A stretch of 47,905 bases of DNA from a virus. The notes beneath the pieces were generated by a model that was not told the DNA's origin, ran no database searches, and was given only the letters and a program-made list of their open reading frames with translations. Position 1 is the stretch's first letter, and each line of letters begins with the position of its first letter. Below are positions 1,861-41,332 of this stretch, piece by piece. The stretch lies in IMG/VR virus record IMGVR_UViG_3300042894_002669, positions 1 through 47,905 of that record; one strand, 5' to 3'. Position numbers and translations under genes: made by a program.

Positions 1861-3183
1861 ATGGATAAGAGGCCAAATGTATTCCCAACCAAAGAACAAG
1901 TAAACACATATCAAACAGAAGAAGCTAGAATTGCTGCGTTTGAGACTGAAAAAGCTGAAGCAACTAACGATATATATGTTAACGCTACTGCACCTAACGA
2001 TACACCAGAAGGGCATTATGATGCTGTTGAAGCTATGAGAATTCGTACACAACAACAAATTGAAGCTAAGAATAATTATGGTAAAGTACAACACCCAGAA
2101 TTATCAGAAAGGTTAATTCAAAGAGTTGAACAACCAGAACAACAAGTTGAGGACCCAAATGCTGAATTAATAAGACTTCGTGATGAACAATTAAGAATTA
2201 ATCAAGAAAATATTTTAAAATATCAACAACAAGCTAATCAAGCTAGTTCTAGAAATAATGAAAACACAGAAACAAATTCTGGTTTATACGAAACAAACCC
2301 ACAAACAAACATGAATCAAAACAATCAAAGTGGTCAAAATAATTATGTACCACCTACACCACCATCGGTTCCACCGATAAATAACACATCTAGTTATGGT
2401 CAAAATCCTTCGAATATAAATCCTTATATTCTTGAGATAAGTCAACCTAATTATAACGCTCCATTTGATGTGATTCCATTACCATCACAAGGTAAATTAT
2501 ACGCAAATAAAAGACCTAACATCAAAGTTGCTTATATGACAACTGCTGATGAGAATATATTAACTAGCCCTAACTTATTAGCTAGTGGTGAGTTTTTGGA
2601 GATTCTTATTAATAGAAAAATACTTGAACCAACACTTAGATATAGAGATTTAACTATTGGAGATAGAAATGCTATTATGATTTGGTTAAGAGCAACTGGT
2701 TATGGTGAGATGTATCCAGTTACAATATATGACGAGAAAAACAATCCTTTTGAAACAGATATCAATTTACAAAATCTTAAAACAAAAAACTTAGGTGCTG
2801 AACCAACTATTGAAGGGTTGTTTGATTTTGTATTACCATTAACAAAAAATAAAATTAAATTTAAATTTTTAACATGTGGTGATATTGATGATATTGAAAG
2901 AAGAGTTGAAATGGATAAACAAAATAACATACCAGTTGATAATACAACAACTTATACACTTGAGAGAATCATTGTTGAAGTAAATGGTGATAGAAATGCA
3001 AATATGATTTCAGATTTTGTATCAACACTTAGAATTGGTGATGGACAATCTTTAATGGAATACATAACAAGTATTGAGAGTGGCATTGACCTAAATATCA
3101 ATGTTACGACCCCAGGGGGAGGGTCTGTGGCCACCTTTCTTCCGCTTAACATGCGATTTTTTTGGCCTAACAGCAAACTATAA
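1861..3183 (+). CDS. T4 gp26-like baseplate hub / tail assembly chaperone-like protein, N-terminal product
   Basis: A 440-residue protein. Residues 1 to about 190 are low-complexity and rich in Gln, Asn and Pro. From about residue 200 there is a compact domain starting PFDVIPLPSQGKLY and continuing through TTADENILTSPNLL, DLTIGDRNAIMIWLR and FKFLTCGDIDDIE. I recognise this pattern from the T4 base plate (gp26-type, PF12322) family. The ORF stops at 3183, within 20 bases of a T7 run. In the +1 frame an open region continues with a helical domain (entry at 3101), so a longer shifted product is likely. Its place just upstream of the tape measure gene is where phages usually encode the tail assembly chaperone pair made by frameshifting. 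Family call moderate; chaperone role inferred. Confidence 0.65.
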   Translation: MDKRPNVFPTKEQVNTYQTEEARIAAFETEKAEATNDIYVNATAPNDTPEGHYDAVEAMRIRTQQQIEAKNNYGKVQHPELSERLIQRVEQPEQQVEDPNAELIRLRDEQLRINQENILKYQQQANQASSRNNENTETNSGLYETNPQTNMNQNNQSGQNNYVPPTPPSVPPINNTSSYGQNPSNINPYILEISQPNYNAPFDVIPLPSQGKLYANKRPNIKVAYMTTADENILTSPNLLASGEFLEILINRKILEPTLRYRDLTIGDRNAIMIWLRATGYGEMYPVTIYDEKNNPFETDINLQNLKTKNLGAEPTIEGLFDFVLPLTKNKIKFKFLTCGDIDDIERRVEMDKQNNIPVDNTTTYTLERIIVEVNGDRNANMISDFVSTLRIGDGQSLMEYITSIESGIDLNINVTTPGGGSVATFLPLNMRFFWPNSKL

Positions 3184-3442
3184 GATTCCACTTTTAGAAG
3201 AAGTTTGGATTTGTACTCAACACATGAAGAATATGACATATTTAGATGTGATGGCAATGCCGACTTACGAAAGAAGGTATTACTTAGGTATGCTTACAAG
3301 AGAATTCGAAAGAAAAGAAGAAGCGATAGAAGAAGCTAAAGAGCAAACAACTACTAGTGGTGGTAAAGGTTCTAGAACTTCTAAGGTATCGGGTCAACAA
3401 TTAAAATCAAAAATGAAAACTGGTGAAATACCACTTAAATAA
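3101..3442 (+). CDS. Frameshifted C-terminal extension of the gp26-like / tail chaperone gene
   Basis: This is an open frame at +1 relative to the gene starting at 1861, overlapping its last 83 bases. An ATG exists at 3101, but residues before about 22 read as the out-of-frame shadow of the upstream gene. The meaningful part starts near ANYKIPLLEEVW and continues with YLDVMAMPTYERRYYLGML, then a basic, low-complexity tail. The pattern of a predicted helix, a Met/Pro loop and an R-x-[FY]-Y motif is common in the C-terminal halves of baseplate-hub or tail-chaperone genes. Removing one base from the T7 run at 3157-3163 joins both frames into one protein of roughly 530 residues. Expression could be by ribosomal +1/-2 frameshift, polymerase slippage or separate initiation; a sequencing error is the dull alternative. 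Confidence 0.6.
   Translation: MLRPQGEGLWPPFFRLTCDFFGLTANYKIPLLEEVWICTQHMKNMTYLDVMAMPTYERRYYLGMLTREFERKEEAIEEAKEQTTTSGGKGSRTSKVSGQQLKSKMKTGEIPLK
3108..3163 (+). promoter_or_regulatory. Candidate recoding signal (hairpin, GGAGG and T7 slip run)
   Basis: A small hairpin, GACCC (3108-3112) with GGGTC (3121-3125), contains a GGAGG core at 3118-3122. About 30 bases further on is a T7 run at 3157-3163. The patch is unusually GC-rich for this genome and lies within the two-frame overlap. Internal SD-like sequences are known stimulators of recoding, but this spacing is longer than in classic cases. Confidence 0.4.
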
Positions 3443-3500: not shown

Positions 3501-4949
3501 ATGAAAGTTAAACTAACAGAAACACAATACAAAGCGTTAGAGAAATTTATAGATGAAGCGAGAACAGCTGAATCACCAACATCATTGAAAAATTTATTTA
3601 ATGATAATCCAAACGCTAAATATTTTACCGTTGTTCAAAGGTTGAAAGGTGGTAATGATTCTGAATATCCTTTTGAAATATTTACACAAAATGGACATAA
3701 AGGTGTTAAAGATATCAGTATTGTTGGTAAGACAAAAGGTTGTGAAACCGATTTACGTCCAGATACTATGTTATATGGTACTTCTTTTTCACTATCATTT
3801 GGTTCTTGTGGTATTAGAAATATAAATAATGTTATTGGTGTTAAATTATATGGTGATGAAGCTTCATTAAAATCTGAAAAACCATTAGATTCAATAGAAT
3901 TAGAGCATGAATTAGATAATACTACTCAAGAATTAGCTGATAAGTATTATGATATGTTAAAAAATGTTGAGGTTGGAAGACAAATTTATATTGATAGTAA
4001 AAACAAATGGGATGGTATTGTAGTATCGAAAAGACCAGAAAGTATTAGTATTGAGTTATATAAACATGGAATACCTATTAATGAAGCTGATGATAATTCT
4101 GATATGGAATGGAATGTACAACCAGATGAACCTAAAAAAACCAAAGAAAAAACTAAACCAAAGAAAAAAGGTGTTATTTTAACATTGGATTTATCTTCAA
4201 ATCCTTTTTATATTGAGAATAATAAATTAATGCTTAAAGGTGTATCATTCGATAGTGAAACTAATAAAAAAAGCGAATTTGTTGTACAAGTCGATAAGTT
4301 TAATACTAATACTGCTCAAACTAAACCAGAAGCTAATCCAGAGTTAGAACCAGAAACCCCTCAAGATGTTAAATCAGATGAGGAATTAAGAAAAGAGGCT
4401 AAAGCTGCTTATGAATTGATATTAAACGACCCATTACTAAAAAAGGCTTTTTATAAAAAACCAAGCTTCTGGAATCTATTTGTTGCTGAATTAAAAGGTA
4501 AGAAAGCAATTGGTAAGGGAATTTTACCAACACTTCAATTATTAAATAGATATGGAACAAATAAATTAAATGATGAACTTGATGCTGAATTTATTCAAGG
4601 TAAAAGTGTGTCGTTTCAAACATATGGAAAACCGTATACAATTAATGTTGAAGATAAGGTATTCCAATTAGATGCTGGTAAAATTTATAAGGCTGTTGTT
4701 AGAAATTATAAAACTGGTGATAATTTTTATGTTTTAGATTCTAAAGAAGGTAATGGAAATGGTTATAAGTTATATATTAAATCTAAAACAGAAGTTCCAG
4801 ATGTTTATAGATGTGAACTAATTAGATATATTAGAAAAGCAAATAATGAAATCAAAGAATATAATCACCAAGGTGATGTGTATATAAAATTAGAAAAGAA
4901 AAGTGATGGTTATAAATCATTATCTCAATCTGAAGAAAACCCTAAATAA
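3501..4949 (+). CDS. Hypothetical protein preceding the tape measure gene
   Basis: A 482-residue protein, not recognised. Residues 1 to about 190 look globular and mixed alpha/beta. A Lys-rich spacer (around residue 215, EPKKTKEKTKPKKKG) leads to a short beta-rich part, and a Pro/Glu-rich linker (about 272-295) leads to a C-terminal globular segment with several Tyr/Lys-rich strands. No signal peptide or membrane helix. It starts after a late-promoter-like element and ends only 7 bases before the tape measure gene, so the two are probably co-transcribed. A role in tail assembly is likely from position only. Confidence 0.7.
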   Translation: MKVKLTETQYKALEKFIDEARTAESPTSLKNLFNDNPNAKYFTVVQRLKGGNDSEYPFEIFTQNGHKGVKDISIVGKTKGCETDLRPDTMLYGTSFSLSFGSCGIRNINNVIGVKLYGDEASLKSEKPLDSIELEHELDNTTQELADKYYDMLKNVEVGRQIYIDSKNKWDGIVVSKRPESISIELYKHGIPINEADDNSDMEWNVQPDEPKKTKEKTKPKKKGVILTLDLSSNPFYIENNKLMLKGVSFDSETNKKSEFVVQVDKFNTNTAQTKPEANPELEPETPQDVKSDEELRKEAKAAYELILNDPLLKKAFYKKPSFWNLFVAELKGKKAIGKGILPTLQLLNRYGTNKLNDELDAEFIQGKSVSFQTYGKPYTINVEDKVFQLDAGKIYKAVVRNYKTGDNFYVLDSKEGNGNGYKLYIKSKTEVPDVYRCELIRYIRKANNEIKEYNHQGDVYIKLEKKSDGYKSLSQSEENPK

Positions 4950-4956
4950 ATAAATT

Positions 4957-7431
4957 ATGGCATTAACCCCAGACCAAGTAAAACAGCTTGTTGAATTATT
5001 AAAAGAACAAGCTAGACAACAACAAGAGATTAATAGTGGTATTGATGGATATTTAGAAGGTTTAAAGAAAGCTAAAGCCGTACAAGAAACTATCAATGCT
5101 AATAGGAAGATAGAAGCTGATTTATTAAAGCAAACACAAAAAGGTACAAAAGCTGAGAGAGATATTGCACAACAAAAATTAGACTTACTTAAAGGACAAA
5201 CAGAAGAATTAGTAGAACAAGGGATTATCTTAAGAAAAAACCTTGCTGAGGCTAATAAGTTGAGAATGTCTTTTGCTGCAATGGGTGCTAGTGCATTAAA
5301 AGGATTTAATAAATTACCAGGTTTAATTGATAATTCTTTTGGTAAGTTGAAATCATTCGGATTGTTTGAAATGGATAAGGCCATTAAGCAATCTGCCTTG
5401 GATATGGGTAAATTTGGTGCAAATACCAAAGCTTTATCAACTTCTATTAGAGACACTGCATTAGTAACTAATCAGTGGGGTATGGGTGTTAAAGAGTTAT
5501 CTAAACTCCAATCATCTTTTAGTGAAGAATTAGGTAGAACCGTTATGATGGGTAATGAAGGTTTGGAAGCTGTATCTGCAATGGCAGCTGCTACTGGATT
5601 AGGTGTTGAGGGTGCAGCTAAGTTAACAGCTGAAATGGACAACCAAGGCTTATCTGCTAAACGAACTGCTGAATACATGGAGCAAACCATGAACGATACC
5701 GCTAAGATGGGTATAAACGCTTCTAAAGTGGTTAAAAATATCCAGAACAACATGAAGATGCTTAATAAGTATAACTTCAAGGGTGGTGTTAAAGGATTAG
5801 CTAAGATGGCTCAAACAACATCTAAATTAGGTGTTGATATGAACTTTGTTGCTGGAATGGCTGATAAGTTATTTGATATTGAGGGTGCTGTTGATATGTC
5901 TGCACAATTACAAGTTATGGGTGGTGAATGGGCTGAATTGGCTGACCCGTTTAAATTGATGTATATGGCTCGTAATGACATGGAAGGTTTAACTGAAGCT
6001 ATGGGACATGCCGCTGCTTCTGCTGCTCATTTCAATGCTAAAACTGGTGAGTTCGAGATATCTAGTCTTGAGATGCATAAATTACGTAAAATAGCTGAAC
6101 AAACTGGAGTTTCTTATGAAGAATTAGCAACTGCTGGTAAGAATGCTGCTAAATTTACTAAAATTAAAAGTCAAATTGGTTTTAGTATGGGTACTGGTAA
6201 GGAAAATGAAGAAATGAAAGAATTCTTGATGAATACAGCCCAATTAGATAAAGATGGAAAAGCATTTATTATTGATATGAAGGGTGATACCAAATTATTA
6301 AGTGAGTTAGGTGCTGGTGGTGATACTTTGATTAAAGCTGAAATGGCCAATAAAGCAACATTAGCTGAAAGGGCTAAAGCTGCAACTAGTTTTGATGAAA
6401 AAATAACCAATCTAATCAATATGGTAAAAACAACTATGTTACCAATTATTGATGGTATTGATGAAGTATTAGGACCATTGGTTGAGAATCTATTTAGTAA
6501 AGATTCAACTGAAGCATTCAAAGATTTAGGTAAAGAGATTGGTGGTTTTGTTAAAAGTGGTCTTGAAATGATTAAACCTTTGGCTGAAATGGCATTAAAT
6601 TTAGGACCTAAAGGTTTATTATATACCTTTTTAGGTGGTAAGGCACTTCAATGGATAGCTGATAAAGCAACTTGGTTTGCTAATGGGTTGATATTAGCTC
6701 AAGGTTTTAATATGGGTTCTAGTGGTAAAGGTGGTTTATCTTCAATGGGTGGTATGTTAAATTTAAGTAAAGGTAATCTTATGAAAGCTGGTGGTCTAGG
6801 TATTGCTGGTGCCGCTGTTGGTATGGGTACAGATTATTTGGTTGAGAATCAAAGAAAAAAAGGTAATGAAAAAACTGCTGACGCTATAAATGTTGGTGGT
6901 TCTATGGCTTCTGGTGCTTTGACTGGTGCTGCTATTGGGTCTTTAGTACCAGTTATAGGTACTGTAGTTGGTGGTATTGTAGGTGGTCTTATTGGTGGTG
7001 GAAAAGCTTTATTTGATAATTCACAAGAACCTCAACATGACGCTTTGTTCGGTTCTCCAATTCATGATGGTTTAGCCCATGGTAAAAATTTAGGTTCTGA
7101 TTTCTCTAAAAAAAGAGGAATAGTACAAGGTGGTAAAATAACTCCAATTGATAATAAAGATGATTTGTTAGCTATGAAACCTGGTGGTGGGATAATGGAT
7201 GGTATTTTTAGTGCCGCTAAAGACATGTTAGGTATTGGTCCTAAGAAATTTCATATAACATATGGAGATATTCAATTTAAATTTGATGACCTGGTTGTTA
7301 AAACATCTGGTGGTGATACCAAAGTTATTGGTAAAGACTTGTTGGAAAATCCACAATTTACTAGAGATATTACTAGAATGATTCATGTTGAAACTAAAAA
7401 AGCTATAAATGGTGGTAAGTTAAAAGGTTAA
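4957..7431 (+). CDS. Tail tape measure protein
   Basis: An 824-residue protein. Residues 1 to about 100 form a strongly helical, Gln/Lys/Glu-rich coiled coil. The centre is Ala/Met/Gly-rich and helical, with many KxxxMG-type repeats. Residues about 600-690 contain glycine-rich hydrophobic stretches (for example GIAGAAVGMGTDYLV and AAIGSLVPVIGTVVGGIVGG) typical of the membrane-active part of tape measures. The protein sets tail length and is ejected ahead of the DNA. By the usual rule of about 0.15 nm per residue the tail would be roughly 120 nm, which is an inference. It follows the chaperone-like gene pair, as in many tailed phages. Confidence 0.8.
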   Translation: MALTPDQVKQLVELLKEQARQQQEINSGIDGYLEGLKKAKAVQETINANRKIEADLLKQTQKGTKAERDIAQQKLDLLKGQTEELVEQGIILRKNLAEANKLRMSFAAMGASALKGFNKLPGLIDNSFGKLKSFGLFEMDKAIKQSALDMGKFGANTKALSTSIRDTALVTNQWGMGVKELSKLQSSFSEELGRTVMMGNEGLEAVSAMAAATGLGVEGAAKLTAEMDNQGLSAKRTAEYMEQTMNDTAKMGINASKVVKNIQNNMKMLNKYNFKGGVKGLAKMAQTTSKLGVDMNFVAGMADKLFDIEGAVDMSAQLQVMGGEWAELADPFKLMYMARNDMEGLTEAMGHAAASAAHFNAKTGEFEISSLEMHKLRKIAEQTGVSYEELATAGKNAAKFTKIKSQIGFSMGTGKENEEMKEFLMNTAQLDKDGKAFIIDMKGDTKLLSELGAGGDTLIKAEMANKATLAERAKAATSFDEKITNLINMVKTTMLPIIDGIDEVLGPLVENLFSKDSTEAFKDLGKEIGGFVKSGLEMIKPLAEMALNLGPKGLLYTFLGGKALQWIADKATWFANGLILAQGFNMGSSGKGGLSSMGGMLNLSKGNLMKAGGLGIAGAAVGMGTDYLVENQRKKGNEKTADAINVGGSMASGALTGAAIGSLVPVIGTVVGGIVGGLIGGGKALFDNSQEPQHDALFGSPIHDGLAHGKNLGSDFSKKRGIVQGGKITPIDNKDDLLAMKPGGGIMDGIFSAAKDMLGIGPKKFHITYGDIQFKFDDLVVKTSGGDTKVIGKDLLENPQFTRDITRMIHVETKKAINGGKLKG

Positions 7432-26027: not shown

Positions 26028-26738
26028 ATGGTGAAAATATATAAAATAGTTGACCCTAGATTTGAATTTGAGGTTCGATATATTGGTAAAACAAAAATGA
26101 CATTAAAAAAAAGAATGGGTGCTCATTTATATCATGGTAGACATAAACGAAAAACACCTCTTTATTTATGGATTAATAAATTATTAAATGAAGAGGTGGT
26201 ACCTTTAATTATTTTAATTGAAGAAGTAGATAAAAATATATGGGTTGAAAAAGAAATATACTGGATAAAATATTATAGAAGTGTGTTTGGTGATAAGATT
26301 CTTAATTTAAGTGATGGTGGTGAATCTAACTTAAATCTAAGTCCATCTAAAGAAACTAGATTAAAAATATCTTTAAGTAATAAAGGTAAAACATGTTTTT
26401 GGAAGGGTAAAACACTAAACAAAATACATAAAGATAATATTAGTCTTGGTGGTTTAGGGTTAAAAAGAAGTGAAGAAACTAAAAAAAAAATTAGTGATAG
26501 TTTAACGGGTAGAAAATTAGATGACGAACATAAATTAGCACTATCAAATGGGCATAATAAATTTAAAAAAAGTGTTTTAAAAATATGTCCTAAAACTAAT
26601 GAAGTTTTAGATGAATATAGTTCAATATCCGAAGCTATTAAAGAAAATAAATTAGAGAAACTTAAAACTAATTTAATTGGTGTTTGTAAAGGTAGAGGTA
26701 AAACATGTGGTGGGTATATTTGGAGATATAAAGATTAA
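26028..26738 (+). CDS. GIY-YIG homing endonuclease with NUMOD domains
   Basis: A 236-residue protein. The N-terminal catalytic domain has the GIY-YIG pattern in the form KIYKIVDP, then VRYIGKT, and a following Glu in the helix WVEKEIYWI. Residues about 120-185 carry NUMOD3-type motifs ([10 protein letters not shown] and [11 protein letters not shown]), and the C-terminus is a NUMOD1-like helix-turn-helix ([12 protein letters not shown]), giving the catalytic-linker-DNA-binding plan of the I-TevI type. It separates the relic nrdB starts from the intact nrdB start 16 bases downstream. Very A-rich codons. Firm family call; likely homing target is the 5' end of nrdB. Confidence 0.85.
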
Positions 26739-38665: not shown

Positions 38666-39565
38666 ATGAAAAAATTAACGACTGAAGAATTCATAATTAA
38701 AGCTAAATCAATTCATGGTGATAAATATGATTATTCTATAACTAATTATGTAAATTCATATAGTAAAATTAAAATAACATGTCCAGAACATGAAAATTTT
38801 GAACAAACACCAAATAGCCATTTAAATGGTAGTGGTTGTTATAAATGTGGTGTTGAAAATAGAAGTGAAAAACAAAGAATGGTAAATGAGGATTTTATTT
38901 GTAAGGCTAATTTAGTATATGGTGATAAATATGATTACTCACTAGTTGAGTATTTTAATAATAAAACAAAAATTAAAATAATTTGTAGTAAACATGGTGT
39001 TTTTGAAATAAAACCAAATGACCATTTAAATGGTAGTGGTTGTGGTAGATGTTTTGGTAGAGGAAAAACCACTGAAGATTTTATCACTGAAGCAATTAGT
39101 AAATATGGTCTTTTATATTCGTATAAATTAACAGAATATAAAAGTACGCATAAAAAAATTAAAATAATATGTAGTATCCATGGAATGTTTGAAAAATCAC
39201 CAAATCATCATTTAAATGGTGGCGGTTGCCCGATATGTAAAGAGTCTAAAGGTGAATCTGAAATAAGAAAATACCTAACAGAAAATAATATTAATTTCTT
39301 ACCACAACATAGATTCCCAGATTGTAGAGATATTAGACCACTACCTTTTGACTTTTATTTACCAGATTATAATACATGTATTGAGTACCAAGGTGAACAA
39401 CATTACAAACCAATCAATTATTTTGGTGGTTTTAAGGTTTTTAAACAACAACAAAAAAGAGATAGAATAAAATTAAATTATTGTGTTGATAAACAAATTG
39501 ATTTGATAATTATTAAATATGATGAAAAAATAACTAATAAATTAAAACAATATTATGCTTGTTAA
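38666..39565 (+). CDS. Homing endonuclease with three zinc-ribbon-like repeats
   Basis: A 299-residue protein. Three repeats of about 60 residues each have the form H-G-D-K-Y-D-Y, then K-I-x-C-x-x-H, then H-L-N-G-S-G-C-x-x-C (for example at about 18-60, 80-128, 143-191); the Cys/His would bind zinc and recognise DNA. The C-terminal about 100 residues form a PD-(D/E)XK-like nuclease (LPFDFYLPDYNTCIEYQGEQH). It is closely related to the endonuclease at 40430, about 860 bases away. It is inserted at the start of the gene at 39555; its last 11 bases overlap that gene's restored start. Confidence 0.75.
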   Translation: MKKLTTEEFIIKAKSIHGDKYDYSITNYVNSYSKIKITCPEHENFEQTPNSHLNGSGCYKCGVENRSEKQRMVNEDFICKANLVYGDKYDYSLVEYFNNKTKIKIICSKHGVFEIKPNDHLNGSGCGRCFGRGKTTEDFITEAISKYGLLYSYKLTEYKSTHKKIKIICSIHGMFEKSPNHHLNGGGCPICKESKGESEIRKYLTENNINFLPQHRFPDCRDIRPLPFDFYLPDYNTCIEYQGEQHYKPINYFGGFKVFKQQQKRDRIKLNYCVDKQIDLIIIKYDEKITNKLKQYYAC

Positions 39566-40429: not shown

Positions 40430-41332
40430 ATGAGAAAACTAACAACAAATGAATTTATTGTAAAATGTGCGATGATACATGGAAACGTTTATGATTATTC
40501 ATTAGTCGACTATAAAAATAATAAAACAAAGGTTAAAATAATTTGTTCGATACATGGTGAATTCGAACAAACACCAAACTGTCACCTAGATAATCAAGGT
40601 TGTCCATATTGTGGTCGTGAAAAATTTAAGTTAAATAAAACTTTATCTAATAATAAATTCATAAATAAAGCTAAGAATATACATAATGGAATCTTTGATT
40701 ATTCCTTGGTTGAATATAAAAAATATGATGAAAAAGTTAAAATAATTTGTTCGATACATGGTGAATTCGAACAAACACCACATAGCCATCTTTTAGGTAG
40801 TGGGTGTCAACATTGTGGTGGTGTTAAAAGAAAAAATTTATATGAATTTATAAAACAAGCAAAAGAAAAACATGGTGATAAATATGATTATTCTTTGGTC
40901 GATTACATCAATACAAAAACCAAGGTTAAAATACTTTGCCCAAAACACGGAGAATTCAATCAATTAACAAATAACCATATTTTAGGACAAGGTTGTCCAA
41001 TTTGTAAAGAATCAAAAGGTGAAAAAGTGGTGCGAAATTATTTAATTAGTAATAACCTAAAATTCATAAAACAAAAATATTTTAATGATTGTAAAGATAT
41101 TAGACCATTACCTTTTGATTTTTATCTACCAGATTATAATGTATGTATTGAATATGATGGAATACAACATTTTAAACCAATTGACATATTTGGTGGTGAG
41201 AAAGGTTTTAATAGAGTCAAAAAAACAGATTTAATAAAAACAAACTATTGTTTAAACAATGATATTAGGTTAATTAGAGTTAATTATAACGAAGATGTAA
41301 ATGAAAAATTAAAAAATGAGTTCGGTTATTAA
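40430..41332 (+). CDS. Homing endonuclease, paralog of the one at 38666
   Basis: A 300-residue protein with the same plan as 38666-39565: three zinc-ribbon-like repeats (H-G-x-Y-D-Y, C-x-x-H-G-E-F, then C-x-x-C) and a C-terminal nuclease, LPFDFYLPDYNVCIEYDGIQH. Two of its repeats share 45 identical bases at DNA level (40532-40576 and 40736-40780), so they duplicated recently or are kept alike by conversion. It is inserted after about 9 codons of the gene at 41316. Its last 17 bases overlap that gene's restored start. Confidence 0.75.
   Translation: MRKLTTNEFIVKCAMIHGNVYDYSLVDYKNNKTKVKIICSIHGEFEQTPNCHLDNQGCPYCGREKFKLNKTLSNNKFINKAKNIHNGIFDYSLVEYKKYDEKVKIICSIHGEFEQTPHSHLLGSGCQHCGGVKRKNLYEFIKQAKEKHGDKYDYSLVDYINTKTKVKILCPKHGEFNQLTNNHILGQGCPICKESKGEKVVRNYLISNNLKFIKQKYFNDCKDIRPLPFDFYLPDYNVCIEYDGIQHFKPIDIFGGEKGFNRVKKTDLIKTNYCLNNDIRLIRVNYNEDVNEKLKNEFGY
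40532..40576 (+). repeat. 45-bp repeat within endonuclease gene, copy 1
   Basis: Identical to 40736-40780. It encodes part of the zinc-ribbon-like module (KIICSIHGEFEQTP). Same frame in both copies, so it is an internal coding repeat. Confidence 0.85.
40736..40780 (+). repeat. 45-bp repeat within endonuclease gene, copy 2
   Basis: Second copy of the 45-base coding repeat at 40532-40576. Confidence 0.85.

Follow-up and report, generated by a model that had tools for sequence, protein, structure and literature searches.

Near the start of the window, by which we mean the whole stretch of 47,905 nucleotides that was analysed, a T4 gp26-like ORF ends while the +1 frame carries on. This arrangement had been noticed in a sequence-only reading, and it was found as described, with the +1 frame free of stops over positions 3095-3442 and including ...FFGLTANYKIPLLEEVW... 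(Table 1). The run of seven T's (T7) that had been placed in the overlap occupies exactly positions 3157-3163, where frame 0 reads CGA TTT TTT TGG CCT AAC AGC AAA CTA TAA. The product joined through a shift at this run was computed to be 526 aa long, in line with the roughly 530 residues anticipated, and the -1 frame at the junction is closed after 8-27 codons. Among the 10,173 codons that make up 13 large ORFs of the window, an in-frame TTTTTTT occurs a single time. Inside these ORFs, 806 open +1-frame stretches were counted, none of which reaches 80 codons. The window, a virus contig from IMG/VR, has a GC content of 29%, which goes up to 45-49% in the stretch 3100-3180.

The gene pair had also been described as lying just upstream of the tape measure gene. 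It is indeed located upstream of this gene, but it is not adjacent to it, as another ORF lies between the two. The tube gene is not seen, since the window begins at position 1; in the phages LIS04, SP-15 and immuto the gene order is sheath, tube, gp26, extension, tape measure. Elsewhere in the window, endonuclease-like inserts are found among structural and replication genes (96-986, 26028-26738, 38666-39565 and 40430-41332), and these comprise a C2H2 zinc finger with DUF559, a GIY-YIG with NUMOD3, and two zinc-finger-rich ORFs that resemble each other.

Table 1. Features of the gene pair and of the genes downstream of it
Feature	Position	Strand	Remarks
Frame-0 ORF, short form (TAC-N, T4 gp26-like)	1861..3183	+	440 aa; C-terminus ...NMRFFWPNSKL, then stop
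Low-complexity N-terminal extension of the frame-0 ORF	about 1861-2442	+	~190 residues
5' arm of a candidate 5-bp upstream stem	3115..3119	+	GGRGG in the clade, GGGGG here; pairs with 3139-3143
Clade-specific conserved element TTTCTTCCNCTTAAC	3136..3150	+	Synonymous positions frozen except N; includes the 3' arm CTTCC 3139-3143
Putative shift site TTT TTT TGG CCT	3157..3168	+	Invariant in 59/59; synonymous ratio 0.00 at F1, F2 and P
+1-frame extension, predicted C-terminal domain of the long form (TAC-NC, T4 gp51 C-terminal-like)	3164..3442	+	92 codons + stop
Frame-0 stop TAA, end of the short form	3181..3183	+	TAA here in 59/59 aligned sequences; a few with an additional earlier stop
482-aa ORF between chaperone and tape measure	3501..4949	+	No PHROG match; best Pfam E=0.079
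Tail tape measure protein	4957..7431	+	PHROG_167, E=1e-10

Nature of the two products

The frame-0 protein is a member of the T4 gp26/gp51 family, so the assignment made from the sequence alone was right. It matches positions 21-176 of the 'baseplate hub' profile PHROG_150 (E=3.2e-7, 31.1 bits), and its score against the Pfam family T4_baseplate (24.4 bits) is just below the cutoff of 24.5. T4 gp26 and gp51, which appear in PMC3004832 as hub assembly chaperones, both belong to PHROG_150, with gp26 ending at profile position 235 and gp51 running to 280. The frame-0 proteins of four other clades end at 233-234. The joined product of the window covers positions 21-279 of the 282 in this profile (35.4 bits, E=1.5e-8), and the joined products of Mel-JY01 and LR756508 extend to 274 and 273, respectively. 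The end of the short product coincides with that of T4 gp26, and the long one aligns through the gp51 C-terminal part, thus a gp26-like and a gp51-like form would come from one gene.

The extensions were also compared with each other by means of sequence profiles. That of the window matched that of the Mel group (P=4.5e-13), the latter matched cyanophage gp51 (P=3.2e-5), and cyanophage gp51 matched the C-terminal part of T4 gp51 (P=4.5e-5), with P values of at least 0.15 for reversed-profile controls. The direct comparison between window and T4 was weak (P=0.004), and the link to gp51 is therefore based on this chain of profiles, on the match of the joined product and on the shared position. 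By these comparisons the long form includes the gp51 C-terminal domain. This goes beyond the sequence-only reading, which had recognized a helical domain downstream, and the architecture reaches far past the clade of the window.

The AlphaFold model of residues 195-440 of the frame-0 protein has a pLDDT of 90.9, and the structural matches of this domain in BFVD are T4-like hub proteins, with E values as low as 9e-25, one of them annotated as gp51-like. Comparison of the domain with PDB structures gave no significant match; among the matches listed, the HK97 tail assembly chaperone 2ob9 had the highest probability (0.21) and target TM score (0.50), at E=4.2. Solved structures searched by sequence gave no match either. 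The low-complexity N-terminal extension of the window chaperone is absent from T4 gp26 and from the other clades.

Conservation of the junction in the window clade

Relatives were collected by searching IMG/VR with the frame-0 protein, and 80 loci were kept. Of these, 77 span the junction and carry the residues FFWP, corresponding to 59 distinct sequences. The +1 overlap is common to all 59 distinct scorable relatives, which have tblastn identities of about 42-79%, and this is more than chance would produce, with the same domain in the +1 frame wherever the sequence is long enough, and TTTTTTTGGCCT[AG]A is invariant at the site in all of them. The T7 tract is present at 77 of 77 loci, and a run of six T's at none. 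No intact single ORF was found in the clade; in one odd contig (L067) the frames are joined, but the FFWP codons are missing, which looks like a sequencing error.

To quantify the constraint, synonymous diversity relative to codon usage was determined for each of 343 codon columns of the 59 ORFs; the shuffled expectation ignores phylogeny, and the remaining columns of the same sequences served as control. The mean synonymous ratio over the 343 columns was 0.83, and a ratio below 0.05 was found in only eight of them, namely codons -7, -6, -4, -3, 0, 1, 3 and 4 (the first Phe being 0), which written out give TTT CTT (CCN) CTT AAC .. .. TTT TTT TGG CCT AAC. The upstream codons -7, -6, -4 and -3 have ratios of 0-0.02, and codon -5 (CCN) is free (1.29). 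Beyond the T7 tract, CCT and TTTCTTCC are frozen as well. A change of TTTTTTTGG to TTCTTCTGG would be synonymous in the shift site. The +1 extension is under purifying selection, with a median dN/dS of 0.38 in the relatives, at a dS near saturation. A +1-frame ATG ahead of the conserved core is found in 5 of the 59 relatives and lacking in 54, and nine have no ATG, GTG or TTG in this frame at all, which makes a free protein from the +1 ORF unlikely in the window clade.

The frozen codons upstream form the element TTTCTTCCNCTTAAC, located 7-21 nt ahead of the shift site and found in the window clade only. RNAalifold predicted a consensus stem GGRGG/CUUCC (z -4.7 versus column shuffles), a short helix that is weak evidence. 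Such a stem would account for some of the freezing upstream, with TTT 3136-3138 and CTTAAC 3145-3150 not covered by it. No conserved structure was predicted downstream of the site in the window clade, and Rfam gave no match above the gathering score.

The same junction in other phages

Across the phages compared, the junction is always at a Phe-Phe motif. In the group of Microcystis phage Mel-JY01 (n=60), the extension is in the +1 frame behind TTT TTT TGG CCT in 55 sequences, CTT TTT TGG CCT in three and TTT TTT TAC CCT in two, and this group keeps only YTT TTT TGG/TAC CCT, with F1, F2 and P alone frozen and neighbouring codons at a ratio of about 1. The L085 group, also +1, has TTC TTT TGG CCT in eight sequences and TTT TTT TGG CCT in two. 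Single phages with a +1 extension are Flavobacterium phage immuto (TTT CTT TGG), RM378 of Rhodothermus (TTT TTT TGG AAT), SP-15 (TTT TTT CAC), GXN1 (TTC TTT CGT), LIS04 (TTT TTT AGT) and LR756508 (TTT CTA TTC CCT).

In cyanophages the extension is in the -1 frame behind T_TTT_TTC in 74 of 74 sequences, and the same heptamer with a -1 extension is found in KVP40, Bellamy, PA5oct, Atu_ph07 and LR756511, and T_TTT_TTT in RAS14. All 74 cyanophage sequences have GAGG or AAGG about 9-10 nt upstream of the heptamer, placed as a Shine-Dalgarno-like stimulator would be; the same bases encode a conserved Glu-Gly. An ATG at +15/+24 is present in 72 of the 74, so both a frameshift and a separate start are open in cyanophages. 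Short 'gp51' genes are annotated in the -1 frame behind T_TTT_TTC in Bellamy (L096, 3199-3369) and KVP40 (L097, 3322-3489), and these annotations probably miss the fused product.

In two sequences, L188 (TTC TTG TAT CCT) and L194 (TTC CTT TGG CCA), the site is lost and the +1 frame is no longer open; directly behind the gp26 stop, the gp51-like ORF begins at an ATG of its own and forms a separate gene. From the sequences, it looks as if the frameshift has been replaced by a separate gene. A scan with a nucleotide pattern, independent of the protein and off by a single base for the clade of the window, matched 46 loci, and 39 of these are such junctions in another clade. The pattern also matched an unrelated conserved locus in L281, L291, L295, L297 and L302, in which frame 0 is closed and the +1 ORF has 219 aa; this match is probably due to chance.

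A putative +1 frameshift at UUU_UGG

The overlap is conserved, the site frozen, the extension under selection, and the two forms are homologous to gp26 and gp51. On this basis we consider it highly probable that 1861-3442 is a tail assembly chaperone gene of a T4-like phage that gives two forms through a programmed +1 frameshift at UUU_UGG. The sequence-only reading had proposed a programmed frameshift of the lambda G/GT type, and frameshifting is supported as the best explanation, but in the +1 direction and not in the -1 direction of lambda. We infer a ribosomal event, in which most ribosomes would terminate at 3183 and release the 440-aa gp26-like short form (TAC-N). A minority, a frequency that is likewise inferred, would pause with peptidyl-tRNA-Phe on UUU 3160-3162 in the P site and UGG in the A site. 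The Phe-tRNA would then slip +1 onto the overlapping UUU 3161-3163, the next codon would be GGC 3164-3166, and reading would go on as GGC CUA ACA... to 3442, giving the 526-aa long form (TAC-NC), the extra helical domain of which would be the counterpart of the T4 gp51 C-terminus. The chaperone function is presumed by analogy with lambda gpG/gpGT, in which case the tape measure protein may be coated by the short form, and the domain that only the long form has may recruit tail-tube subunits.

Re-pairing by +1 in the P site is possible at the conserved site, where UUU_U is invariant and shows no synonymous variation. At most of the junctions, the shared step would be that Phe-tRNA, or Leu-tRNA where the codon is CUU, moves +1 to pair with UUU ahead of UGG. 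Against this mechanism stand the frequency of UGG, which is not particularly rare (7.8 per 1000 codons), the absence of a predicted conserved structure downstream, and the sites of LR756508 and LIS04, which fall outside UUU_UGG and at which a different Phe codon would have to be the slippery one. The slip does not call for a fixed third base in the first Phe codon, and the freezing of this base may reflect the E-site codon.

A different ribosomal step, either a +1 shift of Pro-tRNA on CCU 3166-3168 or a -2 shift of Phe-tRNA on T7, is an unlikely but serious alternative. CCU is frozen in 59 of 59 sequences of the window clade and in 60 of 60 of the Mel-JY01 group, there are precedents for a +1 shift at a Pro codon (Listeria phage PSA) and for a -2 shift (phage Mu; PMC5009743), and -2 re-pairing is possible in the T7 clades. 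However, RM378 has AAT in place of the Pro codon and L194 has CCA, which argues for Phe as the slipping codon, as does the junction itself, since a +1 shift at Phe gives FF-G-[L/I], like FF-R-[V/I/L] of the -1 phages and VF-K-L of T4 gp51. A constraint on the Leu codon of the +1 frame would account for the frozen CCU just as well as slippage at Pro would. The eight L085-group sequences with TTC TTT TGG CCT and immuto with TTT CTT TGG allow no -2 re-pairing, which speaks for +1 over -2. Both the Pro slip and the -2 slip are thus disfavoured by the sequence comparison.

Transcriptional slippage on T7, by which some mRNAs would have one U fewer (or two more) and the frames would be joined before translation, we regard as improbable. 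It is an established mechanism for RNA polymerase on homopolymers, and T7 is uninterrupted in the window clade and in most of the Mel group, but homologous junctions in the same frame occur without a long run, as TTCTTTTGG (a run of four T's, in the eight L085-group sequences) and TTTCTTTGG (immuto). Moreover, a T run alone would not need frozen CCT and upstream codons, and the -1 phages keep a heptamer phased for tRNA, T_TTT_TTC, in all 74 sequences.

There is very little probability that no frameshift occurs and that the +1 ORF works as a small gene in its own right, expressed from an internal start or by re-initiation, as in the 'gp51' annotation of cyanophages and KVP40. The window does have a +1-frame ATG at 3101, the cyanophage ATGs and the separate genes annotated in KVP40 and Bellamy agree with such a start, and in L188 and L194 the genes are truly separated. 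The scarcity of start codons in the window clade (54 of 59 without ATG ahead of the conserved core, nine without ATG, GTG or TTG) stands against this, and a separate start leaves the synonymous freezing of the shift-site codons and the open overlap frame unexplained. Finally, an assembly or sequencing error that added one T to what is a single ORF in nature, a concern in a homopolymer run where a single deletion would join the frames, was rejected as having a negligible chance, because 77 independent loci (59 distinct) from many metagenomes all have T7 and the isolates Mel-JY01 and RM378 also have T7GG.

Discussion

The gene of the window shares with T4 gp26/gp51 (TAC-N/TAC-NC) the PHROG_150 family, the design of a short and a long form and the place before the tape measure, and poly-U shift sites are found in T4-like phages. 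However, T4 has two separate genes, whereas the window would have one gene with a +1 shift at UUU_UGG_CCU. In the case of lambda gpG/gpGT, too, one gene that precedes the tape measure gene gives chaperones of two lengths, but lambda shifts by -1 and the window would shift by +1 on Phe codons. The gp26/'gp51' proteins of cyanophages, KVP40 and jumbo phages are homologous, with the same Phe-Phe junction and a gp51-like domain in another frame; these loci would use -1 with U_UUU_UUY (heptamer T_TTT_TTC/T) and the window +1.

Conserved +1 sites are rare in phages and bacteria. In other +1 shifts, such as those of prfB (CUU_UGA), influenza PA-X (UUU_CGU), Listeria PSA (Pro codons) and the HSTV-2 tail gene, which has been called 'very likely +1' (PMC5009743), the P-site tRNA re-pairs +1 before a slow codon, as is proposed for the window. 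The site of the window is set apart from these by its Phe-Trp-Pro context with UGG as the A-site codon, and it lacks both a stop codon and a Shine-Dalgarno sequence 3 nt upstream.

Vladimirov and colleagues have reportedly concluded that frameshifting is kept in several T4-like groups and that genes 26 and 51 are separate in T4. Their study (Vladimirov, Gautam & Davidson 2022, Virology 566:9-15) deals with the TAC genes of T4-like phages according to papers citing it (PMC10885494, PMC12846349); the PRFect paper cites it for T4-like phages with a short gene and a fused long gene, and the Adele paper for the poly-T tracts that serve as -1 signals in the TAC-N genes of these phages. As far as its title and these citing papers tell, the T4-like TAC genes, the split of T4 26/51 and the poly-U -1 sites are thus already published. 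According to a 2016 review, long-tailed phages conserve G-T frameshifting, 'except T4' (PMC5009743); in a 2010 comparison cyanophage and vibriophage gp51 were found to be without the first ~200 residues, which was not explained there (PMC3037559). No description was found of the +1 version, of the UUU_UGG_CCU site or of a change of direction at the homologous position, the 2022 study being represented by its title and citing papers. Whether YUU UUU UGG CCU is an undescribed programmed +1 signal in large T4-like groups, with the direction switched between +1 and -1 at a homologous Phe-Phe position and a separate gene occasionally replacing the frameshift, we judge to be evenly balanced.

What these data add is a very well conserved +1 site, along with natural variants and losses by which the mechanism can be tested directly. 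They also give a practical annotation rule for hundreds of gene pairs annotated as hub or 'hypothetical'. A single picture would fit the loci compared here, in which the missing gp51 part is supplied by gp26 via frameshifting, and T4 has split the two forms into separate genes.
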